Virus record (IMG/VR): IMGVR_UViG_3300010354_000485
Coordinates: 1-27,646 of that record
Strand: one strand, 5' to 3'
Source: a virus
DNA length: 27,646 bases
The position numbers and the translations under genes were made by a program. The notes below the pieces were generated by a model. That model was not told the DNA's origin and searched no databases. It saw nothing but the letters and a program-made list of their open reading frames with translations. Each line of letters begins with the position of its first letter. Position 1 is the first letter of the stretch. This document shows, in pieces, positions 7,347 through 27,402 of this stretch.

Positions 7347-7349
7347 AAT

Positions 7350-7997: not shown

Positions 7998-8001
7998 ATT
8001 T

Positions 8002-8892
8002 TTACTGTGGTTCTTCTTTTACGTATTTTTCGAAGTCGTAGTATGGAAAATATTGTTCTGCTTTTAATTCAGCAAGAAGATCTTTAACTTTTTTTGTTAC
8101 AACTACTTCTTGCGGAACATAATTTTGTACAAAATCACTGATATCTAGGATTCTTGCTGCAACCCAATCATTTGAAGCCATGAATTCTTGCTTCACATAC
8201 TGATCTTCCGTGGAAAGATATTCTACATCTTGATTTGGATATTCTTTCAAATAGTTTCTTGGGTCAAGCGGAAACTTAAGTTTAGAAACATATTCGTAAG
8301 CTTTATATGGGGTTTCAAAATCATCATATGATCTCATTAGTTTTCTAACCTCATCTCTCCACTTAATCCACATTTCTCTTTCATTCTCTAATTTTTCTGG
8401 AGCATCTGGAAGAACACGCCAATCAGAATACAAAAGTAAATTTTGTATATCTACCATTTTTTTCACATATTTTGCTTGATAATATAAAGCATTATCATAT
8501 AATTCCTTACCTTTTTCAATCCAAACACTATAATTTGCTTGTTTTTGAACTCTTCCTACACCATCAAATAATTCATACAATTCTTTTGCTTGCTCATTTG
8601 ATCCTTCAGAAAAAACGTATGATGCCCAGTATGAAGATTTAGATTCAAAATCATATTTGTTTCTTCTTTTTTGACAAAAATAAGTTCCATCATTATAAAA
8701 TAACAAAAATTGTATTTCATCCTTTTCTGGATCATGCCAATTTAATGGGATAGATTTTAAAATTATATTATCCCAAATTTCATCTTTAAAATGAGTGACA
8801 ACTTGCCCCCTCGCTGCCAACTTTTCGGCAAAATTAATTTCTAAATTTACCTGTCTGTTAGATACTGAAATTCTTTCCGTAGTTTCTTCCAT
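8002..8892 (-). CDS. Putative tail-fibre assembly chaperone-like protein (296 aa)
   Basis: ATG 8892 (MEETTERISVSNRQ) begins two bases after the upstream stop; a longer start at 8916 would overlap that gene by 22 bases. The centre of the protein contains LLLYSDWRVLPDAPEKL, a spacer, then WIKWRDEVRKLMRSYDDFE. This matches the R..LL..[ST]DW..LPD.P....W..YR..LR pattern that I know from tail-fibre assembly (Caudo_TAP/gp38-like) and XkdW-like proteins of phages, which act as chaperones for fibre folding or attachment. The N-terminal 110 residues look like a beta-rich domain and the last 70 are helical. Placement directly behind the fibre genes supports this role. The family link is by motif only. 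Confidence 0.7.
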   Translation of the reverse strand: MEETTERISVSNRQVNLEINFAEKLAARGQVVTHFKDEIWDNIILKSIPLNWHDPEKDEIQFLLFYNDGTYFCQKRRNKYDFESKSSYWASYVFSEGSNEQAKELYELFDGVGRVQKQANYSVWIEKGKELYDNALYYQAKYVKKMVDIQNLLLYSDWRVLPDAPEKLENEREMWIKWRDEVRKLMRSYDDFETPYKAYEYVSKLKFPLDPRNYLKEYPNQDVEYLSTEDQYVKQEFMASNDWVAARILDISDFVQNYVPQEVVVTKKVKDLLAELKAEQYFPYYDFEKYVKEEPQ

Positions 8893-8894
8893 GT

Positions 8895-9551
8895 TCAAGG
8901 AGTTTTTAAATACCAACCTGTCAAGATATATTTATCTTGAGTATAAACAGTCAATCCTCTATGGACGTGTGTCAAACCAGCTGGCCAAAATACAACGGTT
9001 CCCTGCTTTGGTTTTATTCTTCTTTTTTGATATAAAAATTCAGTTTCACCTTCACCATCTGGCATGTCATTCAAATAAATTATCCAAGTCAACTCTCTGG
9101 GAGAATGAAAGTAAGTGCTGTTTTCATAATGCCAAATATGATACCCACCCATGGGTTCTGTTTTTTGCATTTTTACATCAGTAGAGATCAATCTGCACGA
9201 TTTTAATTGTCCAAAGTGATTAATATAGTGCATTGCACATGCTTGAAGATATTGCTGAACTTGATACGTCAACGTTGGATTTGCATCAGATAGTGCTATA
9301 GAAAGATCTTTTCTTCCTAGATTATGATCTTTAAATTGATCAGTTCCATCCATTGTTTTGACTTCATTTTCATCATCTGATGGTTGTATTAAAGATGAAG
9401 TTTGCGTTGTATCTTCAAATACATTAATGAGTTTTTCACATAAAGGTGCTGGAACAAAATCTTCCCATACACCAATAAAATCTTGACAATCAAATTTTGT
9501 CATTCTCGAATCTTTCATTAATTCGAGGGGTCTAATAGGTTGAACGCTCAT
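8895..9551 (-). CDS. 2OG-Fe(II) oxygenase, prolyl-4-hydroxylase-like with HxE motif (218 aa)
   Basis: The third, and first-transcribed, oxygenase of the cassette, resembling P4H alpha-like enzymes known from cyanophages and marine bacteria. Motifs: GGYHIWHYENS at about 135-145, where H141-Y-E143 takes the place of the usual HxD; LTWIIYLND at 154-162; EGETEFLYQKRRIKP with conserved ETEF; GTVVFWPAGLTHVHRG giving the distal H195; and a DKYILTGWY end with K207 in the position of the 2-oxoglutarate-binding basic residue. The N-terminal 90 residues (including KMDGTDQFKDHNLGRKD-like text) are family-typical. It starts three bases after the stop of the 1568-residue fibre gene, which suggests coupled expression with it. 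Confidence 0.9.
   Translation of the reverse strand: MSVQPIRPLELMKDSRMTKFDCQDFIGVWEDFVPAPLCEKLINVFEDTTQTSSLIQPSDDENEVKTMDGTDQFKDHNLGRKDLSIALSDANPTLTYQVQQYLQACAMHYINHFGQLKSCRLISTDVKMQKTEPMGGYHIWHYENSTYFHSPRELTWIIYLNDMPDGEGETEFLYQKRRIKPKQGTVVFWPAGLTHVHRGLTVYTQDKYILTGWYLKTP
8921..8940. repeat. Perfect 8-bp inverted repeat enclosing GATAAATA
   Basis: TCAAGATA and TATCTTGA flank a four-base centre. On the minus strand this puts GATAAATA (8929-8936), one base away from the T4 late promoter consensus, 37 bases upstream of the ATG at 8892, close to the 38-base spacing of the clear late promoter at 27440. It lies within the end of the oxygenase gene. It may be a secondary late promoter, an RNA hairpin, or chance. 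Confidence 0.35.
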
Positions 9552-9554
9552 AAT

Positions 9555-12500
9555 TCAATATGCTTTAATTAAGTATTTTACTCTAAAATATCTGGTCATC
9601 AATGGAACCGTTGAATTTGGTCTTAAATTGACTGTTGGTATCAGTTGTTTTGAATTACTTAATTGAAAATCACCATCATTTAAAGTGCTTCCCAATTCAG
9701 ATGTAGTAAAACTTATGTCAACGGTTGTGGTGGTTGACATTCCTCCAGCAGATGTTCCACCACCAGTATTATTTCCCCATCCAAAAACATTATTTGGATT
9801 TCCATAAGTATTTAGTGACAGATAATGACTGTGTGTTAATACTCCGCCTGGTGGAGAATAAGATTGAGCACTTGCAGTATTTGCCTGGACATCAATTGCA
9901 CCCATATAACTACCAACGTTATTCAATAATTGTAAAGATCCATCTTTATTAGAACTCCACCAGTTTGAATAACTAATTGTTGCATCATAAAAACTACCAG
10001 TTCCGAAAAATGAATATCCTATACTTGGACCACCTGGAATTGAACTACTTATGTTATTAGTATTAACTCTTCTTGATCCACCAAATGTTGTTCTGGCACC
10101 CCAACTGATCAATCCAGTATTTTGTGAAGATACCGTTGCTGTTACTATTTCATGGGTATGAAGAGGAGCACTTACAATTCTTTCTTGTAGTGGTCCAACT
10201 GTTTGTGTAGTATTTCCAGCAATATTAAATCCAACTCCAGAAGCAATTTGATCGTATCCAGTGGTTCTAATAGTTCCAAGTTTAAAGAATTCTCCATCTT
10301 GACCACCAGTATATACTTGTTCTCTTGGAGAGGGACCAGAAGCATCTAAAGTTGCAATGTACCAACTTCCCCCTTCAGAACCAACAATAGTTCCTCCACC
10401 AGAACCTGTTCCATCTGGTCCAACAGCAGTTGGGAGAATTGGTGATGAGGCGCTATTTCCATCAACATTTCCAGCCCCCATAATCTTTCTATTTTTATAA
10501 TTTGGCAACTTAAATGTTCCCGAATATGTTTTGGTAGATCCACTGGTAACAACTGCCCCAGTTCCACCATATCTCCTTTCTAATACACTAAACAAATCTG
10601 GATAATCTACAGCATTCAAAGTTCTACCATCACATTCAATAAACCCAGGATAACGTGATGTTAATGACCCATCAAGATTACCCCAACTTCCAGTAGAATC
10701 TTTAAAAACCGAAATAACTGTTCCTATTGCCAACCCATCTAACTTTTTACCAACGTCAGCATTATACCACGTTGATGTTGTTAGCGATGTGGGGGCAGAA
10801 CCAAGGACAGATACTTGCCAAGTTTTAGATAATGTTCCAACAGAAATATTGATAGTAGCAGTTGGACTTCCATAAGCACCAGTTGTATATCTCAAACTTA
10901 ATGTTTGACCATCACTAATTGTTGAACTTGATGAGGTATAAGGTCCACCATCGATTGAAAATTCAGCTCCACTTGCGCCAGAAATAGCAACAGTGGCAGG
11001 AGAAGTGATTCCTTGAATAACAACAGTATTACTATAAACTTGCGTACTAGCAAGTTGATTTGTTTTATTAACAAAAGCAAAATCATCTGGTGTAGTATCC
11101 CCAGATGTAGTTGTATCAATTTGCCACTCATCTGTTACTTGTCCTGTTATTGGATCTCCAATACTTACAGTTGTAGAAGCAGATCCTCCTGGAGTTGATG
11201 AAGAAGTTAATCTTAGTTGTAATGTCTGATTATTTAATATTGTTGTTCCTGAAGTAGGAGCAACGAAAGCACCACCATTTACACTTACTAATGCACCACT
11301 TGTTGTGGTAATAACTGCTGGGGAATTAATTCCAGTGATTGTTACTATATTACTGTCAATTGCAGCACCAGCAGCAACACCAGTTTGATTTGTAAAATTA
11401 AAGAAATCTGGCGCCGTATCAACTGTAAACACAGTTTGAATATTCCAATCGACAGCACTACCAGATCCTATAGTAACTAGCGCAGTAGTTGTTGATCCAA
11501 CAACAGCAGCAGAAGTCATACGCAATCTCAATGTTTGTCCATTATTAATAGTTCCACTAGAAGATCCTAATGGTATTCCACCGACGATAAGTTCAACTGA
11601 AACTGGTGATCCACCAGAAGAAGCGGTTGCAGACACAGGAACATTTGTTCCTGTCATACCAGAAATTGTGACTTCATTACTTGTGGTTAAAGTGGATAAT
11701 CCAACTCCAGTTAAGTCAGTGAAATCATATGGATTTGGAACTGAGGTAGGCAAATCATTAGTAAAAATTGCCCAGTTTGCATTAACGCCACCAACTGCTA
11801 AAGTAGAAGTTTTACTTGCCGAATACGTTGTTGGAGATGTCATCGAAAGACCTAGAACATCACCATTTACTACGGTCGTAGTGCTTGTTCCTAAATTAAC
11901 GCCGTTTTTAATTATAGTTGCACCATTTGATGCAGAAGCTGAAACAGGTACATTAATACCAGTAATTGTTCTATTGCCGCTAGTTGTTCCAGTTGTAGTG
12001 TAAGTGGTGCTAGGTGTGGCACCAGTAACCGTCGTAAAATCTAGAATAGGATTTGGGGTAAAATCATCTTCAGCATATGTAATTGTTATGACACCATCCG
12101 CACCGTTTGTTTCAGAACCTCCCCCTCCTGGACCATAACTAAAGCTGGGGGATCCTGAATGATACGATATATTATAATAACTGCCACCACCAGAACCACC
12201 TCCAGCATCACTATCTCCACCTGGAGTAAATCCATTAGATCCAGCTGGCGATCCACCGCCACCACCGCCACCGCCGCCGCCGTCTCCGCCATGGTTTGAT
12301 GCGTTTCCTCCAGATCCTAGATTAAGTGACGTAGACAGTCCTCCCGCATCTCCTCCAGTTTGATAACTATTATATCCACCATCATTTCCGCCGCCGCCAC
12401 CACCGCCGCCAGCTCCAGCAACTACAAGAACTGTGCCAGAATATACTAAAACGCCAGCAGCTCCACCGCCTCCACCAGCACCAGACCATCCTCCAGGACC

Positions 12501-14261
12501 AGAATTTCCTCCAGATCCACCAGATCCGCCGCCACCATAACTATTTGTTGCGCCAGATCCACCAGATCCATTTCCTCGACCCCCAGCGCCAGCACCGCCA
12601 CCTTTTCCTACATAAACCTGAATAGAAGATCCAACAGCAACATTTCTAATAGTTCCTTGTATTCTAGCGCCGCTACCGCCAGTTCCCCCAGGACTTCCAG
12701 CATCATAACCACCACCACCGCCGCCACCACCTTCTACCGTATAGGTAAATTCTGAAATAGTTGCTGGTAAGTTAAATGATCCTGGTGATGTAAAATTTAG
12801 TGTCGCCATAGGTCTTGTTGGTAAAACGTTAATTGTATGATAATCTGTAACGCTAAATCCTTGCGGATTTGTTGCTGTTAATGCGTATGTGGTTGTTGTT
12901 GTAGGATAAACATCGATTGTTCGATCACCTTCATAAGATACATTCCCAACTCCATTATTAATTGTTAAATTACTGTAATCACCAGCAATCGTCCATTGTA
13001 AGTATCCAGTTTCACCAGCAACTATTGTTTGAGATCCACTTAATTCTAATACAATTGGAGTTCTAATTGTAACGACAACTTGCTGTGTGGTAGAACCACC
13101 AGCATTTGTAGCTGTTATATTATATGTAGTCGTCGCAGCAAGATATCCATCTGGCAACAGCGCCCAGGGTAGATCTGGCGGTGATGAAGGATAAATTGTA
13201 CGTGATCCAGAAAAAGATACTGCACCAATCCCGTTATCAATTGAAACACTGGTCACATTTATTCCAGAAACAGACCAGCTCAAAATAACAGGGTATCCCC
13301 TCGCAACTGTTGTTGGCGATCCAGAAAAAGATACTGTTGGTGGCGGGGGATTTGACACAAACAAAGTAACATTCTGTTGTGTTGTTCCTCCTGGTCCATT
13401 TGCAGTCAATGTGTAAACATATGTTCCAGCCGAAGTAGGTGAAACTACTCTTGTTCCACTATTTGAAATAGATCCAATTCCTTGATCAATGCTTATAGAA
13501 GATATAACTCCAGATACCGACCATGATAAAGTGGCAGTATTTCCAACTGTAATTGAATTTGTTGATATGCTAAAAGAAACATATGGGGGTGGCGGCGCAG
13601 CAACAATAAATCCATAATTACCAGTTGTAACTCCTCCAGGTCCAGTTGCTGTTAATGTGAAAATATAAGATCCAGAAGATGTTGGCGAAAAACTTCTGGA
13701 CCCAGAAGATGATACTACTCCAATACCACCACTAATTGATACTGAGGTAATTTTACCACTAACATTCCATCTTAAATTAACGCTTTGACCATATGGTACT
13801 GTTCCAATTCCAGCATCACTGCCATCTTGTTTATCAATATTAAAATTTACAAGAGTTGGTGGATTATAGGTACAACTTCCATTATCAAATTGAGCCGATG
13901 GATTGTAATTTGTTGCTAATGGATCAGTACACCCGTAAACAGGACAACCACCAGTGGTCATTCCACTGTGTCTTCCATATGCATTTACAGCACCAAGTTC
14001 TCCACTGGCAACAGCGCCATCTTGGATCATATTTGAAACAGATCCGCCATAAGCCGCAGCACCACCATTATTCCAATAATTAACCCAATAATCTACGCCA
14101 GATTGTTCTCCATATCGACCAAGAAAGGTCATATAAGAGTTTGTTATTGAATCTCTTAATGGATCGCTGCCATCAGGGAACCAAAAAATTCCTGAATTAC
14201 ATCCAACTGTAATAAAAGATAGATTAAAATTAGATGTAAAATGCCCTAATGCGTATGCCAT
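9555..14261 (-). CDS. Mosaic tail fibre / adhesin with tail-collar domain (1568 aa)
   Basis: A large host-recognition fibre. Domains by residue: 40-68 (TFLGRYGEQSGVDYWVNYWN) resembles DUF4214; 106-131 holds a GCTDPLATNYNP motif of the type common in secreted adhesins; 135-480 contains four Ig/PKD-like repeats; 505-730 is a glycine-rich domain with runs of up to ten Gly; 735-1153 contains four copies of a bacterial Ig-like repeat (ITGINVPV...NGDVLGLSMTSP type); about 1178-1275 is a phage tail-collar domain (FIECDGRTLNAVDYPDLF, then FKLPNYKNRKIMGAGN); 1276-1568 is the tip region with two HxH motifs (HTH 1368-1370, HSH 1477-1479) and the end YFRVKYLIKAY. GAGAAG precedes the ATG. No transmembrane segment. 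The host receptor cannot be inferred. Confidence 0.9.
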   Translation of the reverse strand: MAYALGHFTSNFNLSFITVGCNSGIFWFPDGSDPLRDSITNSYMTFLGRYGEQSGVDYWVNYWNNGGAAAYGGSVSNMIQDGAVASGELGAVNAYGRHSGMTTGGCPVYGCTDPLATNYNPSAQFDNGSCTYNPPTLVNFNIDKQDGSDAGIGTVPYGQSVNLRWNVSGKITSVSISGGIGVVSSSGSRSFSPTSSGSYIFTLTATGPGGVTTGNYGFIVAAPPPPYVSFSISTNSITVGNTATLSWSVSGVISSISIDQGIGSISNSGTRVVSPTSAGTYVYTLTANGPGGTTQQNVTLFVSNPPPPTVSFSGSPTTVARGYPVILSWSVSGINVTSVSIDNGIGAVSFSGSRTIYPSSPPDLPWALLPDGYLAATTTYNITATNAGGSTTQQVVVTIRTPIVLELSGSQTIVAGETGYLQWTIAGDYSNLTINNGVGNVSYEGDRTIDVYPTTTTTYALTATNPQGFSVTDYHTINVLPTRPMATLNFTSPGSFNLPATISEFTYTVEGGGGGGGGYDAGSPGGTGGSGARIQGTIRNVAVGSSIQVYVGKGGGAGAGGRGNGSGGSGATNSYGGGGSGGSGGNSGPGGWSGAGGGGGAAGVLVYSGTVLVVAGAGGGGGGGGNDGGYNSYQTGGDAGGLSTSLNLGSGGNASNHGGDGGGGGGGGGGSPAGSNGFTPGGDSDAGGGSGGGSYYNISYHSGSPSFSYGPGGGGSETNGADGVITITYAEDDFTPNPILDFTTVTGATPSTTYTTTGTTSGNRTITGINVPVSASASNGATIIKNGVNLGTSTTTVVNGDVLGLSMTSPTTYSASKTSTLAVGGVNANWAIFTNDLPTSVPNPYDFTDLTGVGLSTLTTSNEVTISGMTGTNVPVSATASSGGSPVSVELIVGGIPLGSSSGTINNGQTLRLRMTSAAVVGSTTTALVTIGSGSAVDWNIQTVFTVDTAPDFFNFTNQTGVAAGAAIDSNIVTITGINSPAVITTTSGALVSVNGGAFVAPTSGTTILNNQTLQLRLTSSSTPGGSASTTVSIGDPITGQVTDEWQIDTTTSGDTTPDDFAFVNKTNQLASTQVYSNTVVIQGITSPATVAISGASGAEFSIDGGPYTSSSSTISDGQTLSLRYTTGAYGSPTATINISVGTLSKTWQVSVLGSAPTSLTTSTWYNADVGKKLDGLAIGTVISVFKDSTGSWGNLDGSLTSRYPGFIECDGRTLNAVDYPDLFSVLERRYGGTGAVVTSGSTKTYSGTFKLPNYKNRKIMGAGNVDGNSASSPILPTAVGPDGTGSGGGTIVGSEGGSWYIATLDASGPSPREQVYTGGQDGEFFKLGTIRTTGYDQIASGVGFNIAGNTTQTVGPLQERIVSAPLHTHEIVTATVSSQNTGLISWGARTTFGGSRRVNTNNISSSIPGGPSIGYSFFGTGSFYDATISYSNWWSSNKDGSLQLLNNVGSYMGAIDVQANTASAQSYSPPGGVLTHSHYLSLNTYGNPNNVFGWGNNTGGGTSAGGMSTTTTVDISFTTSELGSTLNDGDFQLSNSKQLIPTVNLRPNSTVPLMTRYFRVKYLIKAY
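10803..12059 (-). repeat. Four Ig-like repeats in the fibre protein
   Basis: Residues 735-835, 840-945, 948-1051 and 1057-1153 share a layout: PDPFxF-like start, T.TTSNxVTI-type strand, TGI or SGM followed by P.sA or PVSA, a short SxNGG strand, NGQTLxLRMTSs, and a W near the end (NWAIFT, DWNIQT, EWQIDT, TWQVSV). Such repeats are common in bacterial surface proteins and extend fibres as rods. Confidence 0.8.
12072..12749 (-). repeat. Glycine-rich (polyglycine) fibre segment
   Basis: Residues 505-730 of the 1568-residue fibre are mostly glycine, with runs of eight to ten and many GGS, GGN and GPGG units; prolines are rare. On the plus strand this appears as CCN-rich, CCGCCACC-type microsatellite DNA, which may vary by slippage. 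Sandwiches of polyglycine type II helices occur in the S16 gp38 adhesin, a possible parallel. Confidence 0.8.
12822..13859 (-). repeat. Four Ig/PKD-like repeats near the fibre N-terminus
   Basis: Residues 135-480 carry four copies of an 80-95 residue unit with the pattern xSFSxS...V.GxxxTLxWSVSG (LSWSVSG, LRWNVSG, LQWTIAG), SISIDxGIGxxSxSGxR, SPTSxGTYxYTLTATGPGG and a VxVxxPPPP linker. They are rod-like spacer modules. The first two linkers are proline runs (PPPP). Confidence 0.8.
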
Positions 14262-15159: not shown

Positions 15160-16425
15160 TTAGTATGCTCGTATAATATACATGACAATAACACTAGGAG
15201 TTTGTGTTAATACTCTAGTATTTAGAGCACGAGGAATATTTTGAGGTACAACATCGGACCTCACATTTGCAGTAATCGTTGTTGGCATTCTAAGAGATGC
15301 TTTATCATAAAGAATATCAAATGATTCGTGCCCATGAGCATTGATCATATCAGAAATACCAGCAGTTAAAGATGTTTTATTAAAACTAATTCCAGAATGA
15401 TTGAACATTACCTCATATGGAATGTGAACATCTCCACTGTTTGAATCTCCATTATCATAATTTCTGTTTTGTATCCTGATATTTCCTCCACCCGTAGCAT
15501 ATGGAACACTCTCTAAAGGATCAAAAGATCTATCATGTACTGGGTTATTGTTTGGTTGTCCAAATGGATCTGGTGGTTCTGGTGCATCAGCACTTCCGAT
15601 CCAGTTAGATAATCCACTAGAGGCAACATTATTTGGTATCATGTTGTTTGGAGGAACTTCGGCATCAATATTTGCTAAAACAATACCAGGAGAACCAGTG
15701 CCATAAGAATTTCCTACATCTCCTGCGTTATTGGGTCCAGTATATCCAATATCAACTTGAGGAGAATCCAAAAGGTCATCAGATCTTGCTTTTTGAATTC
15801 TATAACTAATTTCTCTTGAGCAAGAAACCCCTTGTCCTGGTCTACTTTCACTAGTTCTTGATATGCTAGGAACGGTTGTTGGGTGAGAATGTGTTGGGGT
15901 GTGCCTTCTTCCCAATTTTCTAGGAGATGTATAAACTGTTTTAGATCCAAATCCAGGATCATATGTAGATCCAGTTATAGACCCAGAAAAATCATTTTCT
16001 GGCGTATAACTAAACATAATATCAGTGTAAATGTTATTAAATTCACCAGGAACACCATTATCAGTATCGCCAGATCCAATATAAGATCCAACTGCTCCCA
16101 AAGCAGCAGAAGTATCTATGTTTGGTCTTATAGCTCCAGCGCCAAAATAACTACTATCAACATCGGATAATGCTTTTTGAGAAATGTTTGGTAAAATTAT
16201 TGTTCCAGTATAGTTTGGAAATGCACTTCCTGTTCCAGATGATGGAACTGTTCCCCCGTATGTTGTTTTTATTACTTGAGTAAGTAGAGGAAAATCTGAT
16301 GCATTTACTTCGCCACCATTACATATCAACCATCCCCTAGGGACCTCAGTTAGGTCCCCTGTCCACGGCATGATCGTACCAATCGCCGCAGCTTTCATCG
16401 TTTTTATACTTCCGTAGTTTGCCAT
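15160..16425 (-). CDS. Tail-collar domain fibre protein (421 aa)
   Basis: Second short collar-type fibre protein. Residues 14-81: GTIMPWTGDLTEVPRGWLIC, N-G-G, FPLLTQVIKTTYGGT, FPNYTGTIILPN. The middle (about 100-340) is a variable, proline- and glycine-rich insertion with little recognisable structure, and HSH (179-181) and HGH (364-366) mark the tip region. The end SVIVMYIIRAY matches the other two collar proteins. A GGA about ten bases upstream of the ATG may be the ribosome binding site. Role inferred: receptor-binding or tail-tip protein in the virion. Compared with the 289-residue copy, it has an extended middle, suggesting diversification of one ancestral gene. Confidence 0.88.
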   Translation of the reverse strand: MANYGSIKTMKAAAIGTIMPWTGDLTEVPRGWLICNGGEVNASDFPLLTQVIKTTYGGTVPSSGTGSAFPNYTGTIILPNISQKALSDVDSSYFGAGAIRPNIDTSAALGAVGSYIGSGDTDNGVPGEFNNIYTDIMFSYTPENDFSGSITGSTYDPGFGSKTVYTSPRKLGRRHTPTHSHPTTVPSISRTSESRPGQGVSCSREISYRIQKARSDDLLDSPQVDIGYTGPNNAGDVGNSYGTGSPGIVLANIDAEVPPNNMIPNNVASSGLSNWIGSADAPEPPDPFGQPNNNPVHDRSFDPLESVPYATGGGNIRIQNRNYDNGDSNSGDVHIPYEVMFNHSGISFNKTSLTAGISDMINAHGHESFDILYDKASLRMPTTITANVRSDVVPQNIPRALNTRVLTQTPSVIVMYIIRAY

Positions 16426-16428: not shown

Positions 16429-19400
16429 TTAAATTTCCATTAACCACCAACCTTGTCTATCACTTGGAACGCCAGAAGCAGCTCCATTTGATAAGAATGG
16501 ACCAGCATAAACTAAACCAAAAGCTGCGTTCGGAGTTGTAACAATAAGTTCTCCTCCATCATAACCAGTTAATGTTATTCCAGCAACTGTCGTAGCAATA
16601 TTTGTGCTGTCCCCCTGAATTGGAACTCCAGTTGCCGCCCTTACAACAAATCTCGTATCATATTTTAAGTTTCCTCCAATATCAATGAATCTAATCATAT
16701 CTCCCATGGAAGGAGATGGTGGAAGTTTGACATAAATCGTTCCAGTTGCATTAACAAAATAACTTACATTACTTGTAACAACTCCAGCATCGCCAGAAGG
16801 AACGCCAAGTAATTCCCATCTTCTCGCTCCAGTAGGTCCATAATAGAAATCTAATCCACCCAAATCAATCGTTCCATTATTATTTACTCTAAAGTGATTA
16901 TAAACTTGGAGAGATGCTGTTCCATTAACTGCAGAACCAGATGTGTGAGTTGGAGCACCAGTTCCAGTTGTTCCTGCAGTAATTACTTTATATGTAATAC
17001 CGTTATTATATACAAAACTATTTACAGCGACTGCAGTGCTTGCAGTCCATTGAGATCCTCTATTGATTTGGAAATCACCGCCATTTAATCTAAGATCACT
17101 ATTGAAAATATTAGTTCCAGTTGTTGCTTCAGAAGTATATAAACCAGAGATTGTTAGATTTCCAGTTCCATTTTGTAAGAACAATCTGTTAGAAGTTCCA
17201 GCAGCATCATAAATTCTGAAATCTCCACCATTGATTGTTGTGTTTCCGTTAGAACCAGTTACGGTTAGTTTGTTGAATCCAACTCCAATCCCCAGATTTC
17301 CAAGAATACTGGTGTTTCCAGTAGCACTATCTACTTTAAAAGTAGTAACTGCAGAAGAGACAGTAACAGCATTTGTAACTACATTAGAATTAGTTACAAA
17401 TGTTGGACTTGCTACTGCAATTGGGTTCAGATTTCCATATGTAAATTCTACTGCTTGAGTTAATACAGAATTAGTATTTCCACTGAGGACAGCAGTAATT
17501 GTTAATCGATATGTGTGAATTTCAGATGATACAGGTTGAGGTCCAGAATAACCAACAACAGAAACGCCATCTGTTCCAGGAGAAGTACCAACATAATTTG
17601 GTTGTATAACTGTTCCTACTGGTAATGTTGTTGCGTTTGCAGGAATTGATGTGGTTGCAGATGGAATTCCACTTAAATGCCAATGTACAATTCTCTTACC
17701 AGTTGATGGATTTGTAGCAGACAAATCTTCAAGGTATACAGTATAACTTGCAATAGCGATGCCAGCTGGAAGTAAAGAGGTATTGAATGACCATGCTAAA
17801 GCTGGGTTTCTATTTTGTGCTCCTGCATATACTGGTCCACCAGTATATGTTCCTATCATAGAATCTGTGGCAACGCCTCCAGAAGATGGTAGAGCAGCTC
17901 CTCCACTTGGGGTTACTGTAAATGTACTTCCAGTAATTGCTGTCGTTGAAGATGGAGTAGTGGTTGTTGCTCCATTATTAATTATAAATTGCTTGGTATT
18001 TGCTACATCAGATCCATACAAGTTGATGCTGTTGTAGACATCGGTTCTTCCTTTAATTAAAGTATTACCAGTAGTAGATTCTACTAAGAAATTAGTTACC
18101 GCAGGAGATCCGCCATCGGTTATTCTGAGAGATTGAATTGATGTCAATGCAGAAACAACTGTTTGTATCTTAACTAATTCGGAATTAGATAATCTCAAGA
18201 AATCCCCAGCAACAAGAGATCCACCAAATTCAGCTGTTTTAATTACAGTATTAGCACCAGCAGTATTGATTCCAACCGCATCTGTTAGATAACTTACATC
18301 ATTAGATTTATCCAATCTTACGATAGGAACATTATCTGGGTGAGTTCCAGCAGTTGTGCCATCTTGAGCTCTAACAACTTCTACTCTAAATCCGAGAGGA
18401 TCCGCAGAGTTATTTAAGTTTGTTAAAGCAGTGACCCTGACAATTTCACTAACTGCTTGATTTGGAACATAACCAGAAGGTTGTCCAGTAAAGGTTACTG
18501 ATCTATCAATTAATAGATAATCACCTATTTTGATGTCGGTGGTTGAAGATGGTTCATTTAAATATAATGTAGTATTTGTTGGCGCCCAATTTGCAGCACC
18601 TTGAGTATCTAATGTTTTCCCAATTCCTACTGGATGATACAGATCAATATTTAAATTAATTAATGAACCAGCTAGGTGAGAAATTGGAGACGTTCCAAAT
18701 ACACCACGAATTACTTCAACCCCACCAGCATTTAATCCACCAGATAACGTAATGTCTCCATTAACTGTTTCACTAGCTTTGATTAATACGCTGTTATTAA
18801 TTGTAGTTGTACCAGCATCAGCACCAATACTTAAGAGAGAAGCACTTCTAGCAAAATTGATTGTATTTGGTCCACCAGAAGCACTGAATAGATTTAAATT
18901 CTGAGCAAAAGTAAAGAGATTAGAAGTGCCAGATCCAGCAACAAATCCAGAACCAATTTGAACATCACCATCAAGATTTATATTTCTATTCTTAACGGTG
19001 AACAAACTGGAACTATTAGCAAATGCACCACCGATAGTTACATTAGAAATATAACTACCATTTGAATTATCTACTGTTCCAATATCAATTATGGAGTTGG
19101 TAGAATTTCTATGGATGAATAGGTTAGAAGTTGCGGCAGCATCACCTATTTTTACTGTTTGATTAGTAAAGTAGTTGCCGATATTTAAATTCTGTGTTCC
19201 AGTTGCTAATACGTTATTAGAAATATTTAAAGTAGTCGCATTTCCAGCAAAGCTAACCGTAGTTGGACTATTTGCTAGATTAAACGTTGGGTTTGGACTA
19301 TCAATATTTCCAGTGGTTAATGTTACAGTTCCAGCAATAGTAATAGATCCTAGAATGTTTGTAGATCCATTGACAAGGAAATCTGCGCCAGAAGCAGTAA

Positions 19401-22400
19401 TTTCTGCTACAGATGCATTGATACCAACCTTTCCACCAAGAGCGCCTAAAGTAGAAACTCGGAATACAGCTCTATCGCTTAACGATGAGAAATTGCCACC
19501 AACAATGAACGCATCGTCTCTTCCGACAAGAGTTTTTGTTTGAATTCCTCCAGCAACAGAAATATTTACTTTTTTACCACTGATGAATGCAGTTCCGACA
19601 ACATCTAAGTTTGCTACAGGATCAGTATTTGTTTCTACAAATCCTGTCTTGTATGCATCATTACTTGCTCTAGCAACAGTGTTTACACCAAACTTATAAT
19701 CACCAAAAGTTTCGGTATTGGTTCTAATTGTTTCTGAACCAATTACACCAACTTCTTTCCAATTTGCTCTAGAAACTTCTAGTTTTGCTGCAGAAGGAAG
19801 AGTAGACCATGTGTAAACAATTCCAGAAGCAGGTGGAACTGTTATTTGTATCTTAGCAAAAGTGCCTGTAGGACTAAATCCAGAAGTTAAGACAGTCCAA
19901 ATACCATTTAGATTATTGTTTGCACTGAAATCACTAATTCTTAACTGAGAACCAGCAGAAATATTTAAATTCTGGTTAGTTACACCAACTACCCAATTAA
20001 TTGTAAGTAAAGTTCCATCACTAGTAATGTTTTGAATATTGCTATCCGAAATCTCCGTGTAATAATTTGCATAAATCCACCCAAGAGATCCAGAAAGACC
20101 TACTTCACTTCCCTTTAATAAGATATCTCCTGGGAGTGGTTTTAAGGATGCGCTGTAAGAAATTTCTTGAGTGCTGCTAAATTTAGCAGTTTGATCTGGT
20201 GTTGTATTAGTTGGACCTAAAGTAGAAGTATAGTGAGTTCTGAATGAATACTGTTGTCCGTCTAAACCTAATGATTGTCTTGGGGTTACAGTGTAAATAG
20301 CTGATCTAATTTGATTCTTAGTTAATGTAATGTCTCCAAGATTATTGTTTCTTTGAACAGATCTGCTCAATGAAACGTCATCACCTATCGTTCCGTCAAC
20401 TACGCTATAGATTCTAAGGGCAGTTCCTTCATTTGCATCTACAGAAATTTCAACTGGATTATTGAAGTTTGCATTTCCTTCGACTGTGATTCTATTATTG
20501 AAGGTTACTGGTACATCAAATGTTGTTACCAATCCACCAAGATTATCAGTGGAATCATCTTCAGATTCGACTAACTCTGCTCTTTCTAAATATGTCTCTT
20601 CGCCTGTAATAGCATTGATTTTACGGTTACCAATATAAAGGTCGCCATTAGAGTTGAGACCTGTATAGAAGACGATACCACCATCTTCACGCTTAGATTG
20701 AGCATATTGATCTTGAGAATCTGTTAGAACAACTTCCTGGCGAAGTGGGAAACCAGTTGAATAGTTACCAGGACCGAAACCTAGATATTCAAAGGTGTGG
20801 TTACCAGAACGTGCAATAGATGGTCTACGAAGTTCTACATAAATTTTTCTTTGTGTTGGATATACAGAATCACCACAAATAGGAATATATCTGTCTTCAG
20901 ATCCAGAAGTTGCATTTCCTTCTTGTGCTTCAATAATGTTAGAACCACCAGAAGGATTTAAAGTTGGTGTAGTTAAAGATTCTGATTTAACGAACGTATA
21001 AGAATTTAATGCTGGTTGCAAAACTAGATCTAATACTAATTCTTTAGTTTCACTATTTTTGGAATCATTAATTGTGACCAATCCATGAGTATAATTATCT
21101 GCTGCAGCAATTGAAGCAGGAACATCATTATAAGTAGAATTTAATTGCTTGAACCATACTGGATCATTTTTATAGTTTAATGGATATAATTGAGAAATAG
21201 GTTGAGAGAACTTAAAGTTTCTAAAGTTTTCTCCTACTCCAGCACCAGTTGGATATGGAGAGATATTTCCTCGTATACATGTTAAGTAATAAACACCATC
21301 CTGTTGACCAGGAATTCTTTCTTGAATAGTATCGATATCGAATACGTAGAAGGTATCTTCAAAATCTCCAACATCAGTAACTGATATAATCTTATATTGA
21401 TTGCTGGCGTCGTCAGTAATTGTGTCGCCAGGAACTAACGTATAAACATTTGCTCCTTCTACCCTGTATAGAAAATCTTTTCTGTTTGATTTGTCTCTTC
21501 CTTTGGAATCACCAATACTATTTGGTTTTGTAAGTAAATCTGCAAATACAGAACCTTGAGTAAATCTCGTGTTTATGATATTATTGTATTCTAAATCACC
21601 AGTTACATTTTTCAATACCAAGTAATGTTTGGTATCAACATTGAAATAACCTTGAATATACCCAGAACCTTGTGTATAACCAACCCAACTTACAGCATTC
21701 ACAGAAACAGATGCAGAATTATTAACAACAAATGATCCACCTTGAGGAGCATTTATCTCAACCACATAGAAAATTTCATTCTTTAAAGCATTGTTTGTAA
21801 TAGTATGATCAAAAGCAACCAATTCTAAGTATGTTGTTCCGCTTACTGTAACTTGATTTGCTGATTGAATTGTAAAAGCAATTTTACTTGCGGTTCTGTC
21901 ACTGCCAATTATTTTAGGATTGTTGTATGGATCATAAAGCGATGTTCTCTTTTCTGGCGAAAGATCAAATACTCCAGAATCAACTGGATTAATAGGATCT
22001 GCAGCAAGTTGTGCTTCGCTATACCCGATTCTTTCTTGAGCGCCACCAGGATTCAAGAATGTAGGGATTGCTGGTGCTCCACCAATTGGTTGCAAACGAA
22101 TTTTCTGTGGAACTAATCTTCTCTTGTCATCCGTTCTTGCTTTGATAACAAATCCATTGAGAGGATCTCTTACTGTGGTTAAATAATAAGGAATGACATA
22201 CTTCAGACGATAGATTCTATCTTGTTTTTCTCTAGTATCTTGTATACGAGTGAACCACGTATCAAGGGTTCTAATTTTTCCTGATCCTGGTCCATAAGCA
22301 GCAACATCATGGAATCTATGTAGAATGCTGTCGCTTCTAATTAAACCAGCAGAAGATTCATCGACTACTTGTAAATACCACAATCCAGAAGTATTACCAA

Positions 22401-25400
22401 CAGTGCTATACGTAGCATCGAATCTTAATGGACTTATTCTCTTGTCGGCAAACACATAGAAGTTTTGACCGCTGCTAGGTACAAACGAAATCGCATTAAC
22501 CCCAGCGATTGCATCTGCATGTGTAGTATGAATGCTTAACTTTTTAGAGGTAATATATCTTGCATAATAATATGTTTTGGTGTTTATAGTTCCAGAACCA
22601 GCAATTTCAGGAAGATCAGATCCAACAATATCGGAAGCTACTCGGAAAAATACCTTCTGTGGAGTAACTGCAGCATTTGGAAGATCAAAAATGTGAGATA
22701 CATCGGTCTCAATTTCTCCAGCACCAGCAAGATTACACTTGTATTTGTGTAAATCATAGGTTTCGTCTAAAACATATTGTTGGATTTCAATTTCAACATC
22801 TGGATCAACAGAATCTGTTTCTGAAGAGTAGATGTATATGCCAGCGGCAGCATTTTCTTTGGTTGCTGCAAGCATTAATTTTGTTTGATCAGAACCATCA
22901 AAATATGTTGTTCCAGCATAAGATTCTGGTTGAGTTACTCTACCAGGAGCAATTACATAATAAATTGTATTTGCATTAAATCCTTTTGGTAAACGAATAA
23001 CTCTCTTGTCTGGTGTTGTACCTGTTTTTGCTTTTGGTACAAGCCTCACAGGAGTTCCTGTTTCAAATTTATGTGGGTTTGATGATGAACCACCAGTGTT
23101 TACTGTAAATAAGGTTGCTCTCTTCGCCAATCCAGCATAATCAATAACAGGTTCAACTCTTGTAACAGATGCAGATGGACCTAGATTTAAAATTTCAATG
23201 ATATCATCAAAGTAACCAGTAATAATAGATGCAATATCTGCACATTCTGGATATACTGTATCTTGTACAATAGTAGCATCTTTTGTTGGGGTTACTAAAG
23301 ACCAAGCTCCTGCTGGGAGATCAAAGTACAATCTTGCTGTGCTGGAGTTTTGTAATGCATTAACAACGGAACCAGATGATAATTTACTTCCAGCAACACC
23401 CAATTCAATCTGAGTTGCATTAACAATTCGTTTTACATAAGTTCCTGATGGAATATTAGTCGTTATTGGAGTTTGACCAGGATTTAATAGTCCATTTGTG
23501 AAAGAACTTGCATTATATTCACGAACACGCATACCAACTAAGATTCCTGTTGTATCACCAACAGTAACAATTGCAGAACCTGTTGATGTTTGGCAATTTG
23601 TTCTTAAATAATCAAAGTTACGCATCGCAGCGATACATAGATTCTTGACATAATCATATGCTTCGATGCTTTCCGTTAATTCATTTTGAATATAAACTAA
23701 CTGACTACCAATGTAATATCCTTCTGCAGCTTGAATTGTATTGATATTACCACCCAAACGCAAATCTTGTACAACTGCATCAACAAAATATCCCATGTCA
23801 CGTTGACATTTTGAAATGTTGATGCTAGTGTTTGTTGTTAGTGCTGGATATTTTGCAAGAATGTATTGATATGCTTCAGAAGTAATAAATGATTTGTTAT
23901 CTTCAATTTGATTTGCAGCATCCTGTGCTTTTCCATTAATGGTAATTCCAGCAGGATTTAATGTTTCTAGAGAAACTGTGTATCTTGTAAATCCTGTTGG
24001 TTCTAATTTGGAGTAATAAGTACCATTATCAAGTTTAACATATAATCTTTCGTTTGTTTTACTTCCAATTCTATAACCACCAACTGATGCTGCTGGTCTT
24101 ACTGCTGGATCTGATGCACCATCAGTTCCCAAATACAGTTTTGTGTGGTTTGTAGATGCATTAGATGCTTGAATATCTAATGTGTAATATTGAATTTTTT
24201 GCTCACTGCTTGGGGAAGTATTAATAACTTTAGGTGGAATAATATCAGTAATGTATCCACCTTTATCTTGGTTGAAAGAAAATCCTTTAAATCCTTTTGC
24301 GTGTAGAGATGTATTACCAAAGTTGGAGTTAGAGTTGGTGATAGACATATCACCACCGCTCTCCATTAAGAAGTGGTCAAAGAAACCTACGGCAAACACA
24401 GAAACGCACTGAATGAAAGCGTCATCAGAAGCACGAATGTGGAAGTTTCTCCAATCATCCTTCCAATATGCATCACCCTTGGTGTGATAAGGAACTGTAG
24501 CAAAAGCATCTGTTAATGATGCTTGATTCCAAGTATTTGTAAATCTATCATAACGGATGAAGGCACGGTCGTCTTTTTGTAGAGAAACGCCAGTGTACTG
24601 AGCAACAACCATGGACTTGAATCCAGTTGCTTTTGCACCGTCTGCCCACATACCGCACAGACCCCAAGTAGATCTAATCGAGCAGTTGAATACATATGGT
24701 GATGCTGATTCTACAGAGTCAATTTCTGCTTGAGCAACTGCATTTGTCCCCAGACCACTAGCAGTGGTATAAATTTGTCCAGAAACAAGACCTAATCCAG
24801 CAGTTGTTGCTGAAATTTGATATTCAAATACCTTTGGATTTGTTGCATCAAGTGCAGTGACCTTAAATGTGCCGTTTACTTGCTCGTCTAAACCAGAATT
24901 TAAGATAGCAACATATTGATCAACAAAATATCCATGGTCAATTTTTGTTGTGACTTTCGCTCTAATTGTTCCAGCTGGAACAGAATCAAATAATTGAATA
25001 CTTTCAATTCTTCTAGTGTCAGAAAGTGGTCCTACAATTCTATTTTCTTGAACAAGAGTTTCAAACTCTCCATCATCAATATCTGGTTGAAACTGAACAA
25101 AAGCTCTACCAACTTTTTCATAATAACGATCAAGTTCTTCACTATCAGCATAAGTCATGATAGTGATCTTATGGTGAGAATATTCAGGAATTGCTAATTG
25201 AGCAGTATTTCCCTTTTGGAAATAAACTTTACCGACATTAGTAGTAGGATCATATAATGGAGAATTTGAAGATAGATCGCCATCTTTAATGGTAAATTGC
25301 CAAATATAGCAACCACCAGTTAGATTGAAAATAGAAGTTCTTTCTTGTGTTCCGTCTGTGGGATCTGGAACATAAAGAGGACGAACAATAGTTCTACGAA

Positions 25401-27402
25401 GGTCATAACCGATTAGAGAACAACCTCTAGGAACGATACAACCACCAGTAGAAGAGTTAAATTTGTAGAGAACATTATTTGGATTGCTTAAATCAAGAAT
25501 ACTATCATCTTGCCATTCTTGTAACGCACGGTTGTAATTGAATACTGGTTGTGTTCCAGTAACTGTTATAGAAGCAAGATTATTAAGGTTACCTGCTTGT
25601 AATGTTGTTGTTAAAACACTAATTAATGTTGTGAGAGTATTTTGAACATCAATACACTGAGCAGAATTACCAGAAGGTAGATGAGGAATATCTGGAGTTG
25701 CTGCTCCAGCAATTGCTGGACCTTCTAGAATTGTAAAATCTTTTCCATATAATTGGTTCGTAATCGCCTTTTTCATCATGTCACGAGCCATGTTGAAAGC
25801 GGTTACAGATTGTGTTACCTCTCCAACCAATCCATTTGAAATTGGATTTCCTTGTCTATCAAAATATGCTTTTGTAGCGGAAACTATATTATTATTTCCA
25901 CCCGTTCTCAAATCAGCGCAAACTGCATCAATGACGTAACCAAGATCACGTTTACATTTAGTTTCTCCAGCAGGGATTGAACCAACAGTTTCTGCTACAA
26001 AATGACTTCCAGTAATATTACCAGCAGTTACAGTTGTTGTTACAAGAGAAATTAAGGTTGTAATCTGGGTCTGAACATTAGCGCAAGATGCACTACTGGT
26101 GTTAGATCCAGTTGAAGGATCTGGTGTTAATGTTAAATCCTTAGAATAAAGTTGATTGGTTATTGCAGCAATCATCAAATCTCTTGCTTTGTTGAAAGCA
26201 GCGTTTGATTGTGTTTGCTCTCCCTGTAACCCCGCAGTAATCCAAGTTGATCCGTCAGATGTAAAATAATTTTGTAGGAATTTGCGTGTATATCTATTGC
26301 CACCACCTTGAGCGATATCCAAGGAGACCGCATCAATCAAAAATCCAATATCTCTACGGCACTTATTTTGACCAGAAACATATGTAGGTGCAGTTTCTGG
26401 AGCTAATAACGTAATATCACCAGAACTAATTACTGTTGTTACAATAGAAGTTAGTGTCTGAATAGCTGTTTGAACGTTAGCACAAGATGCGGTGCTAGTA
26501 TTCGATCCAGTTGTTGGATCAGCAGTAATTGTTAAATCTTTAATCAATAATTGATTAGTAATTGCTTTTTTCATCAGGTCTCTTGCCTGATTGAATGCTT
26601 CTACAGAAGCTGCTTCTTCGCCAACAAGACCATTTGTAATTGGTGTATTGCCATTAAAATATTGAAGGACAAATTTTCTAGAATATTTTACAGATTCTAG
26701 GAAAATATCTAGAGAAATGGCATCAACGAAATAAGCAATATCTCTCTTACACTTGACTTCAGTAGAGGATACAGTAGGATGTAATAACAGCATGTTATTC
26801 CATGCTGTAGTAACAATCTCAGTTTTATTTTGCTGGATTAAACGATACGCATCGTAAAATCTGCTGTGAGTTGTTGTTTGAGTATCGCCTGGGAAATAAA
26901 AATCTGGGTAATCTATGGCAACTTGCGCCAAAGATCTATCTAAAATTTCATCTCTGTTTAATTGAATTAAACGATAAGAATCTTTGTACCTAGAAGTTGG
27001 AGTGGTTTGAGGATCTCCAGGATAATAAAAATCTGGATGCTGAACAGCAATTTCAGCAGCAGAACGATCAATAATTTCTTGCTTGTTTAATTCAATTAGA
27101 GTTGCAGCATCAAGGTATCTTTGTTCTGCATTTGCTGCATCAATAAGTCCAGGTCTATTGTCAATATAGTGATTACCAGGCATCAACATGATGCTAAACT
27201 GGTCAAATCTGTCGTTATTCTTTCCAGGAAGATACGAATAACGTGCTACTTCGATAAAGGCTCTTTGAATTGTTTTGAAAGGTCTTAGAGGAGAGTTTCC
27301 TCTATTGTCTAATTCATCAGTAGCATTAAAATCATCTGGAGATACGTATAGATACTTTCCTGTTTTACTTGAATATAAATTATCAAGCCTTGTAAGAGCC
27401 AT
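16429..27402 (-). CDS. Giant virion structural / fibre protein with embedded PEBP-like domain (3657 aa)
   Basis: A single 11-kb gene behind the late promoter, start MALTRLDNLYSSKTGK with GAG six bases upstream. Regions: 1-90 typical cyanophage structural-protein N-terminus (RPFKTIQRAFIEVARYS); 95-209 about 43-residue tandem repeats; 217-609 three copies of a C[KR]RD..[YF].[IV]DA repeat with a fourth near 1200; 610-2300 beta-rich, unassigned; 2300-3140 beta-solenoid/TAA-like fibre segments (VKIGDAAATSNLFIHRN, NLDGDVQIGSG); 3150-3307 PEBP-like domain; 3453-3495 a cellulose/chitin-binding-like YNNGITYKVITAGTTG module; about 3530-3657 the cyanophage C-terminal domain (VKLPPSPSMGDMIRFIDIGG, then GWWLMEI). 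No membrane segments. Probably a trimeric long fibre or baseplate-attached adhesin. Which virion part it forms is not certain. Confidence 0.88.
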   Translation of the reverse strand: MALTRLDNLYSSKTGKYLYVSPDDFNATDELDNRGNSPLRPFKTIQRAFIEVARYSYLPGKNNDRFDQFSIMLMPGNHYIDNRPGLIDAANAEQRYLDAATLIELNKQEIIDRSAAEIAVQHPDFYYPGDPQTTPTSRYKDSYRLIQLNRDEILDRSLAQVAIDYPDFYFPGDTQTTTHSRFYDAYRLIQQNKTEIVTTAWNNMLLLHPTVSSTEVKCKRDIAYFVDAISLDIFLESVKYSRKFVLQYFNGNTPITNGLVGEEAASVEAFNQARDLMKKAITNQLLIKDLTITADPTTGSNTSTASCANVQTAIQTLTSIVTTVISSGDITLLAPETAPTYVSGQNKCRRDIGFLIDAVSLDIAQGGGNRYTRKFLQNYFTSDGSTWITAGLQGEQTQSNAAFNKARDLMIAAITNQLYSKDLTLTPDPSTGSNTSSASCANVQTQITTLISLVTTTVTAGNITGSHFVAETVGSIPAGETKCKRDLGYVIDAVCADLRTGGNNNIVSATKAYFDRQGNPISNGLVGEVTQSVTAFNMARDMMKKAITNQLYGKDFTILEGPAIAGAATPDIPHLPSGNSAQCIDVQNTLTTLISVLTTTLQAGNLNNLASITVTGTQPVFNYNRALQEWQDDSILDLSNPNNVLYKFNSSTGGCIVPRGCSLIGYDLRRTIVRPLYVPDPTDGTQERTSIFNLTGGCYIWQFTIKDGDLSSNSPLYDPTTNVGKVYFQKGNTAQLAIPEYSHHKITIMTYADSEELDRYYEKVGRAFVQFQPDIDDGEFETLVQENRIVGPLSDTRRIESIQLFDSVPAGTIRAKVTTKIDHGYFVDQYVAILNSGLDEQVNGTFKVTALDATNPKVFEYQISATTAGLGLVSGQIYTTASGLGTNAVAQAEIDSVESASPYVFNCSIRSTWGLCGMWADGAKATGFKSMVVAQYTGVSLQKDDRAFIRYDRFTNTWNQASLTDAFATVPYHTKGDAYWKDDWRNFHIRASDDAFIQCVSVFAVGFFDHFLMESGGDMSITNSNSNFGNTSLHAKGFKGFSFNQDKGGYITDIIPPKVINTSPSSEQKIQYYTLDIQASNASTNHTKLYLGTDGASDPAVRPAASVGGYRIGSKTNERLYVKLDNGTYYSKLEPTGFTRYTVSLETLNPAGITINGKAQDAANQIEDNKSFITSEAYQYILAKYPALTTNTSINISKCQRDMGYFVDAVVQDLRLGGNINTIQAAEGYYIGSQLVYIQNELTESIEAYDYVKNLCIAAMRNFDYLRTNCQTSTGSAIVTVGDTTGILVGMRVREYNASSFTNGLLNPGQTPITTNIPSGTYVKRIVNATQIELGVAGSKLSSGSVVNALQNSSTARLYFDLPAGAWSLVTPTKDATIVQDTVYPECADIASIITGYFDDIIEILNLGPSASVTRVEPVIDYAGLAKRATLFTVNTGGSSSNPHKFETGTPVRLVPKAKTGTTPDKRVIRLPKGFNANTIYYVIAPGRVTQPESYAGTTYFDGSDQTKLMLAATKENAAAGIYIYSSETDSVDPDVEIEIQQYVLDETYDLHKYKCNLAGAGEIETDVSHIFDLPNAAVTPQKVFFRVASDIVGSDLPEIAGSGTINTKTYYYARYITSKKLSIHTTHADAIAGVNAISFVPSSGQNFYVFADKRISPLRFDATYSTVGNTSGLWYLQVVDESSAGLIRSDSILHRFHDVAAYGPGSGKIRTLDTWFTRIQDTREKQDRIYRLKYVIPYYLTTVRDPLNGFVIKARTDDKRRLVPQKIRLQPIGGAPAIPTFLNPGGAQERIGYSEAQLAADPINPVDSGVFDLSPEKRTSLYDPYNNPKIIGSDRTASKIAFTIQSANQVTVSGTTYLELVAFDHTITNNALKNEIFYVVEINAPQGGSFVVNNSASVSVNAVSWVGYTQGSGYIQGYFNVDTKHYLVLKNVTGDLEYNNIINTRFTQGSVFADLLTKPNSIGDSKGRDKSNRKDFLYRVEGANVYTLVPGDTITDDASNQYKIISVTDVGDFEDTFYVFDIDTIQERIPGQQDGVYYLTCIRGNISPYPTGAGVGENFRNFKFSQPISQLYPLNYKNDPVWFKQLNSTYNDVPASIAAADNYTHGLVTINDSKNSETKELVLDLVLQPALNSYTFVKSESLTTPTLNPSGGSNIIEAQEGNATSGSEDRYIPICGDSVYPTQRKIYVELRRPSIARSGNHTFEYLGFGPGNYSTGFPLRQEVVLTDSQDQYAQSKREDGGIVFYTGLNSNGDLYIGNRKINAITGEETYLERAELVESEDDSTDNLGGLVTTFDVPVTFNNRITVEGNANFNNPVEISVDANEGTALRIYSVVDGTIGDDVSLSRSVQRNNNLGDITLTKNQIRSAIYTVTPRQSLGLDGQQYSFRTHYTSTLGPTNTTPDQTAKFSSTQEISYSASLKPLPGDILLKGSEVGLSGSLGWIYANYYTEISDSNIQNITSDGTLLTINWVVGVTNQNLNISAGSQLRISDFSANNNLNGIWTVLTSGFSPTGTFAKIQITVPPASGIVYTWSTLPSAAKLEVSRANWKEVGVIGSETIRTNTETFGDYKFGVNTVARASNDAYKTGFVETNTDPVANLDVVGTAFISGKKVNISVAGGIQTKTLVGRDDAFIVGGNFSSLSDRAVFRVSTLGALGGKVGINASVAEITASGADFLVNGSTNILGSITIAGTVTLTTGNIDSPNPTFNLANSPTTVSFAGNATTLNISNNVLATGTQNLNIGNYFTNQTVKIGDAAATSNLFIHRNSTNSIIDIGTVDNSNGSYISNVTIGGAFANSSSLFTVKNRNINLDGDVQIGSGFVAGSGTSNLFTFAQNLNLFSASGGPNTINFARSASLLSIGADAGTTTINNSVLIKASETVNGDITLSGGLNAGGVEVIRGVFGTSPISHLAGSLINLNIDLYHPVGIGKTLDTQGAANWAPTNTTLYLNEPSSTTDIKIGDYLLIDRSVTFTGQPSGYVPNQAVSEIVRVTALTNLNNSADPLGFRVEVVRAQDGTTAGTHPDNVPIVRLDKSNDVSYLTDAVGINTAGANTVIKTAEFGGSLVAGDFLRLSNSELVKIQTVVSALTSIQSLRITDGGSPAVTNFLVESTTGNTLIKGRTDVYNSINLYGSDVANTKQFIINNGATTTTPSSTTAITGSTFTVTPSGGAALPSSGGVATDSMIGTYTGGPVYAGAQNRNPALAWSFNTSLLPAGIAIASYTVYLEDLSATNPSTGKRIVHWHLSGIPSATTSIPANATTLPVGTVIQPNYVGTSPGTDGVSVVGYSGPQPVSSEIHTYRLTITAVLSGNTNSVLTQAVEFTYGNLNPIAVASPTFVTNSNVVTNAVTVSSAVTTFKVDSATGNTSILGNLGIGVGFNKLTVTGSNGNTTINGGDFRIYDAAGTSNRLFLQNGTGNLTISGLYTSEATTGTNIFNSDLRLNGGDFQINRGSQWTASTAVAVNSFVYNNGITYKVITAGTTGTGAPTHTSGSAVNGTASLQVYNHFRVNNNGTIDLGGLDFYYGPTGARRWELLGVPSGDAGVVTSNVSYFVNATGTIYVKLPPSPSMGDMIRFIDIGGNLKYDTRFVVRAATGVPIQGDSTNIATTVAGITLTGYDGGELIVTTPNAAFGLVYAGPFLSNGAASGVPSDRQGWWLMEI
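17482..17955 (-). other. PEBP (YbhB/YbcL)-like domain within the giant fibre protein
   Basis: Residues 3150-3307 carry the signature of phosphatidylethanolamine-binding proteins: NRNPALAWSF, YTVYLEDLS with D3226, KRIVHWHLSGIP with H3240-W3241, LPVGTVIQPN, GYSGPQP beginning at G3284, then H3296 in EIHTYRLTITA. These correspond to the anion-pocket residues (Asp, His-Trp, GYxGPxP, His) conserved in YbhB/YbcL, RKIP and FT families. Before it lies a Ser/Thr/Gly-rich linker, and fibre beta-repeats resume after it. Confidence 0.75.
25576..26754 (-). repeat. Three tandem ~130-residue repeats in the giant protein
   Basis: Residues 217-609 contain three copies starting CKRDIAYFVDAISLD, CRRDIGFLIDAVSLD and CKRDLGYVIDAVCAD. 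Each continues with NGLVGE or AGLQGE, a FNxARDLMKKAITNQL helix, a LTxxPxTGSNTS-type loop and a SCANVQTxIxTL helix; the third copy is divergent at its end. A fourth, isolated copy of the motif (CQRDMGYFVDAVVQDLRLGG) occurs near nucleotide 23800. Confidence 0.85.
26776..27120 (-). repeat. Tandem 43-residue helical repeats
   Basis: Two full copies and a partial third start at R95, R138 and R181, exactly 43 residues apart. The unit reads RYxDxxRLIxLNxxEIxDRS, then AxxAxxxPDFYxPGDxQTTxxS. The partial copy ends at WNNMLLLHP. Confidence 0.88.

Follow-up and report, generated by a model that had tools for sequence, protein, structure and literature searches.

A divergent PEBP domain inserted in the giant tail fibre of a likely marine cyanophage, with relatives in other virion proteins

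The window (the whole stretch of viral DNA that was analysed, 27,646 nucleotides) encodes a giant fibre protein in which the initial annotation had placed a PEBP domain. This raises the question of whether the domain is a genuine PEBP and, if so, how it comes to be part of a phage fibre and what it might do there. The parts of the window on which the answer depends are as follows (L numbers denote sequences compared with the window).

16429..27402, minus strand: giant tail-fibre ORF of 3657 aa (ORF list; phrog_4527 'short tail fiber'; orthology and synteny with gp12)
17359..17970, minus strand: inserted cassette, fibre residues 3145-3348, delimited by alignments and missing in L018, L044, S-CAM1 and Sf-CH3
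17431..17940, minus strand: PEBP domain, residues 3155-3324 (PF01161; AlphaFold2 and Foldseek), the unit common to different virion proteins
16432..16830, minus strand: conserved C-terminal domain, residues 3525-3657, present in GC 734 fibres with or without PEBP
15160..16425, minus strand: gp12-type short tail fibre (phrog_4591, Collar) of 421 aa, without PEBP
9555..14261, minus strand: Collar protein of 1568 aa, without PEBP

The 3657-aa protein matches the phrog_4527 profile with E 0 and 4663 bits and is the orthologue of the T4-GC 734 genes in S-PM2, Syn1 and S-CAM1. The GC 734 'short tail fiber' gene lies directly upstream of gp12 in the window, as it does in S-PM2 and Syn1, and full-length homology and gp12 synteny both place the protein among the GC 734 fibres of Kyanoviridae. 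Homology and annotation indicate that it is probably part of the virion; virion proteomics has been published for cyanomyoviruses (PMC3037559). The DNA of the window matches Synechococcus and Prochlorococcus phages, and its host is therefore likely to be a marine picocyanobacterium.

The first 1300 residues of the fibre contain several repeats of the motif C(K/R/Q)RD(I/L/M)GY.(V/I)DAV, and because this motif recurs, the fibre seems to have repeated helical units that would resemble part of a phycobiliprotein. Pfam reports a Phycobilisome match (PF00502, E 1.4e-10) at residues 1161-1207, and the fibres of L001 and L003 have it too. Downstream of the fibre genes (6807-9551, minus strand), three genes have matches to 2OG-Fe(II) oxygenases, one of them weak.

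Profile searches and structure prediction agree that the fibre contains a PEBP domain, as the initial annotation had proposed. In Pfam, PF01161 matches the segment with E 5.9e-12 and 46.5 bits (cut-off, 24), covering positions 8 to 100 of the 135 in the profile. When the whole record was searched in six frames, with positive controls in six well-known genomes, PF01161 came up at the same place with E 4.8e-14. Profiles are needed for this, since a single-sequence phmmer search of the domain against the PDB found no PEBP and returned only a spurious ricin-B-like match (E 0.04); a profile made from the virion copies alone still retrieves YbcL (E 5.3e-5). An AlphaFold2 model based on 14 sequences (12 virion copies and 2 bacterial PEBPs) has a pLDDT of 80.8 and a pTM of 0.79, and its best 15 PDB matches in Foldseek are all PEBPs, which identifies the PEBP beta-fold that the initial annotation had predicted. 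The nearest match is YbcL (1fux, E 8.9e-7), with a TM of about 0.6 to YbcL/YbhB, and further matches include YbhB (1fjj/1vi3), Rv2140c, CT736, HP0218, plant CEN/FT and human PEBP. A first model, built from 3 close homologues and no bacterial PEBP, was weaker (pLDDT 58, pTM 0.64) and is superseded by the 14-row model, yet Foldseek recovered the same top families with it, YbcL first and YbhB near. We also considered a chance similarity between beta-sandwiches, which is ruled out by the profile scores and the Foldseek ranking.

Membership in the YbhB/YbcL subfamily is another matter. The NCBIfam model TIGR00481 matches the domain with 31.0 bits, below its curated cut-off of 57.75, and the domain does not have the form of that subfamily (free-standing and single-domain, with a C-terminal helical segment), being an internal module with a short hairpin instead. 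It is a divergent PEBP and not a standard YbhB. The extent first given for it, residues 3150-3307, does contain the PEBP but stops about 17 residues short; the real end is at about 3324, because the shorter extent cuts into the final beta strand (SVLTQAVEFTYG), which is part of the domain. Its location near the tip of the fibre holds in the linear sequence only, where it is followed by 333 residues that include the C-terminal domain (3525-3657).

Alignment with the PEBP-less fibres of L018 and L044 shows that the cassette is a clean extra block of about 204 residues between two conserved shaft segments, and alignments with S-CAM1 and Sf-CH3 give the same picture of an insertion. The spacing between the AEFGG motif and the C-terminal domain is usually 253 to 282 residues in fibres without PEBP and 494 to 515 residues in fibres with PEBP; the exceptions are L091, which is long without PEBP, and three values of 9 residues, in which the motif pattern matched elsewhere. 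Comparison with L018 and L044 also reveals another insert, about 50 residues long (QWTASTAVAVNSFVYNNGITYKV...), at fibre residues of about 3450-3501 (window positions of about 16900-17055, minus strand). This insert has no Pfam match and, by eye, is similar to small carbohydrate-binding inserts.

HMM searches found no PEBP in 14 complete cultured cyanophage genomes, and in 50,697 phage records tblastn with the PEBPs of the window, L003, L058, L100 and L101 brought up no virion protein with a PEBP. A further query, L089, had matches in 20 records, almost all of Synechococcus phages; judged by their place on the query, many lie in its cupredoxin-like insert (described below) or close to it. In IMG/VR contigs, a search of cyanophage structural proteins for the same fusion, which the initial annotation had suggested, was strongly positive and added six virion-protein types to the GC 734 fibre. 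The carriers are listed here.

GC 734 fibres: window, L001, L003, L047 and L058
gp12-type phrog_4591 fibre: L047 and L058, with PEBP placed at a point equivalent to about residue 115 of the orthologue in the window
phrog_30655/Collar protein: L102, and also an N-terminal piece in L107
phrog_4924/Collar protein of 1542 aa: L089 and L090, with PEBP in the N-terminal part
LamG-containing protein: L100
Fibre-like protein adjoining gp13: L105 and L108
Tail nozzle of a T7-like phage (cyanopodovirus): L101 (PF25675, E 5e-141)

The virion PEBP copies are 46-82% identical to the window copy and 24-26% identical to two bacterial PEBPs. The phages of L047 and L058 have two copies each, one in the GC 734 fibre and one in the gp12-type fibre. 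The 1542-aa protein of L089 and L090 is 33% identical to the window's 1568-aa Collar protein over residues 768-1568 of the latter. The PEBP of L089 and L090 is interrupted by an insert of about 100 residues, which in L089 (PEBP at L089:6349-7197) has a plastocyanin-like motif (GTYYYVCGNHPTSMNG). The cupredoxin likeness of the L089/L090 insert is weak (Pfam E 0.02), and segments matching the L089:6349-7197 region are present in several cultured cyanophages. The contig of L101 stops soon after the PEBP, and the nozzle is seen up to that point. The nearest known phages of the PEBP carriers have Synechococcus or Prochlorococcus as hosts in every case tested; for example, the terminase of L105 shares 85% identity with its counterpart in Synechococcus phage S-SKS1, and the capsid protein of L101 shares 68% with the one in Prochlorococcus phage P-GSP1. 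Sequence comparison thus demonstrates a virion-specific PEBP subfamily in about seven kinds of predicted marine-cyanophage virion protein. The domain appears to be a mobile add-on, passed from one structural protein to another among T4-like and T7-like marine cyanophages.

In a scan relying on short patterns, we found no close cellular donor, only three distant bacterial PEBPs with 24-27% identity. A copy of the host ybhB is present in E. coli phages DN1 and vB_EcoP-720R6; the annotation of DN1 describes it as a transduced bio locus. The tblastn match MT835538.1 (L012, 'Bacteriophage sp.') was considered as a further phage PEBP and rejected, its neighbours reading by eye as metabolic and regulatory bacterial genes. 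This record looks like a fragment of a bacterial chromosome and calls for caution in searches of phage databases.

The pocket residues of the domain bear directly on its function. The translation has D3226, H3240-W3241, GYSGPQP at 3284 and H3296 (IHTYR at 3295) exactly where the initial annotation had located them. Their alignment to YbhB and their conservation among 13 complete distinct virion copies are as follows.

17725..17727, minus strand: D3226, aligned to the first D of DPD in YbhB; D in 11/13 copies
17680..17685, minus strand: H3240-W3241, aligned to HW of WWHW in YbhB; H in 9/13 copies
17533..17553, minus strand: GYSGPQP, residues 3284-3290, aligned to GYDGAAPP in YbhB; GY invariant
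17509..17517, minus strand: H3296-T-Y3298, aligned to HRY in YbhB; H in 13/13 and Y in 12/13 copies

The window domain therefore has the complete PEBP pocket set (Asp, His, His, Tyr and the GxxGP motif) when aligned to YbhB/YbcL, and the alignment to solved PEBPs is the basis on which these residues are predicted to cluster in space. The pocket residues are intact in 9/13 copies, across carrier contexts; both the Asp and the first His are kept in 9/13. Every loss of the first His is in L047 and L058, where the H3240 position is Leu in all four copies; the D3226 position is N in the giant-fibre copies of these two phages. Comparison of the window with L001 shows purifying selection on the predicted domain, with a dN/dS of 0.08 in the PEBP domain and 0.10-0.11 in the remaining fibre, although dS is high and the ratio is thus rough. 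Based on the residue conservation, the losses in L047 and L058 and the dN/dS of 0.08, we conclude that the pocket appears to be constrained in most lineages and dispensable in one. The leucine in place of the first histidine in L047 and L058 means that ligand binding is not universal, and the loss of a pocket histidine in four copies means that anion binding cannot be the sole role.

One possible explanation for this pattern is that the PEBP is a structural accretion or spacer domain with no specific ligand, a stable and easily inserted beta fold comparable to the Ig-like domains of virions. Its recurrence in many unrelated virion proteins, its patchy presence among relatives and its persistence with a damaged pocket in L047 and L058 are all consistent with this. 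However, nine of 13 copies keep the Asp and first His at about 45-55% overall identity, across carriers, and polar D/H/H/Y residues would be superfluous in a pure spacer, so that we consider this explanation rather unlikely, if far from negligible. We think it improbable that the domain is an enzyme, with a site of two histidines and an aspartate that would act on a surface glycan or small molecule by trimming or modifying it. Depolymerases are frequent in phage fibres, and the His/His/Asp set is intact in the window. Such sets have been argued to be typical of active sites, and an enzymatic activity has been proposed for YbhB proteins, which are reported to occur in fusions with carbohydrate modules (PMC8793217). 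On the other hand, activity is unproven for the PEBP family, the first His is gone in L047 and L058, and the neighbouring inserts are not known catalytic domains.

We favour a reading in which the PEBP is an accessory host-surface-binding module, and we give it a probability of about 0.5. Wherever a role can be assigned to a carrier, it is a protein that contacts the host (fibres, collar proteins and the nozzle), which favours surface binding, as does the presence of PEBP in two unrelated phage types that have picocyanobacterial hosts in common. In cells, the fusions known for YbhB domains join them to carbohydrate-active modules (PMC8793217). Against surface binding, the PEBP fold persists in L047 and L058 despite the damaged anion pocket, and most relatives live without the domain. 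Small phosphorylated ligands bind PEBP pockets, and the pocket might instead hold a soluble ligand (phosphate, a nucleotide or an acidic sugar) and serve as an environmental sensor or in virion stability, not as a host adhesin. The Foldseek match 1beh is a cacodylate complex, and the Ig-domain protein Hoc has been suggested to sense the environment (PMC10385173). Most carriers with a guessable role are nevertheless fibre or nozzle proteins that contact the host, which favours surface recognition and leaves a soluble ligand as a very unlikely explanation.

The cassette is a self-contained, true PEBP fold inserted between shaft repeats of a cyanomyovirus GC 734 fibre. If the PEBP is an accessory binding module, it would be displayed on the side of the distal fibre, and a trimeric fibre would have three of them. 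The Asp/His/His/Tyr pocket may hold a small group, anionic or polyhydroxy, of the picocyanobacterial surface and so aid reversible adsorption, while the main contact would be made by the conserved C-terminal domain or gp12. We know of no ligand shown for bacterial PEBPs from which the receptor could be predicted. The initial annotation had proposed phosphatidylethanolamine (PE) or a phosphorylated glycan as ligands, and both are doubtful. The lipid A of marine Synechococcus WH8102 and CC9311 has no phosphate, heptose or KDO and does have galacturonic acid (PMC4515613), and the cyanobacterial glycerolipids are MGDG, DGDG, SQDG and PG (Synechocystis data; PMC7727718), which makes PE or phosphorylated lipid A an unlikely target. 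An acidic sugar, a sulpholipid or the PG headgroup would fit better, and we would expect an acidic sugar or SQDG rather than PE or a lipid-A phosphate in the pocket.

Marine cyanophage receptors are, to our knowledge, largely unknown. The virion PEBP, a module that is small, foldable and predicted to have a ligand pocket, is carried by T4-like and T7-like cyanophages of one host group and opens a direct biochemical route to the surface features that they grip. The PEBP family, the function of which in bacteria is still open, gains a new context. It is a tentative proposal, at somewhat less than even odds, that the virion-specific PEBPs are an undescribed class of host-recognition domain, traded among T4-like and T7-like marine cyanophages for a common picocyanobacterial surface ligand.

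We found no literature linking PEBP to cyanophages, phage tail fibres or receptor-binding proteins, subscription papers being outside the coverage of this search, and a study of YbhB fusions describes them as infrequent, with carbohydrate-related partners, and does not mention phages (PMC8793217). Bacterial YbhB/YbcL proteins (PF01161, TIGR00481; 1fjj, 1fux) have the same fold and the same D, HW, GYxGPxP and HxY signature, but they are free-standing and have a C-terminal helical segment, while the window PEBP is internal to a virion protein and has a short hairpin in that place. Lambdoid phages and prophages also encode a PEBP, namely YbcL (e.g., in Escherichia phage PhiR34_1; probably phrog_5139); unlike the window PEBP, it is a free-standing accessory gene in the early region between ren and ninE and is not in the virion. 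The T4-GC 734 'short tail fiber' of Kyanoviridae (S-PM2, S-CAM1 and Syn1) is orthologous to the window fibre, is encoded upstream of gp12 and has the shaft and C-terminal domain in common with it, but the cultured GC 734 fibres tested have no PEBP cassette. Ig-like accretion domains (e.g., T4 Hoc) are likewise small beta domains at many sites in unrelated virion proteins, patchy among relatives; they have another fold, and the conserved polar ligand pocket is a feature of the virion PEBPs. The addition of domains to fibres is a known kind of event, and the use of the PEBP fold in such a role appears to be new.
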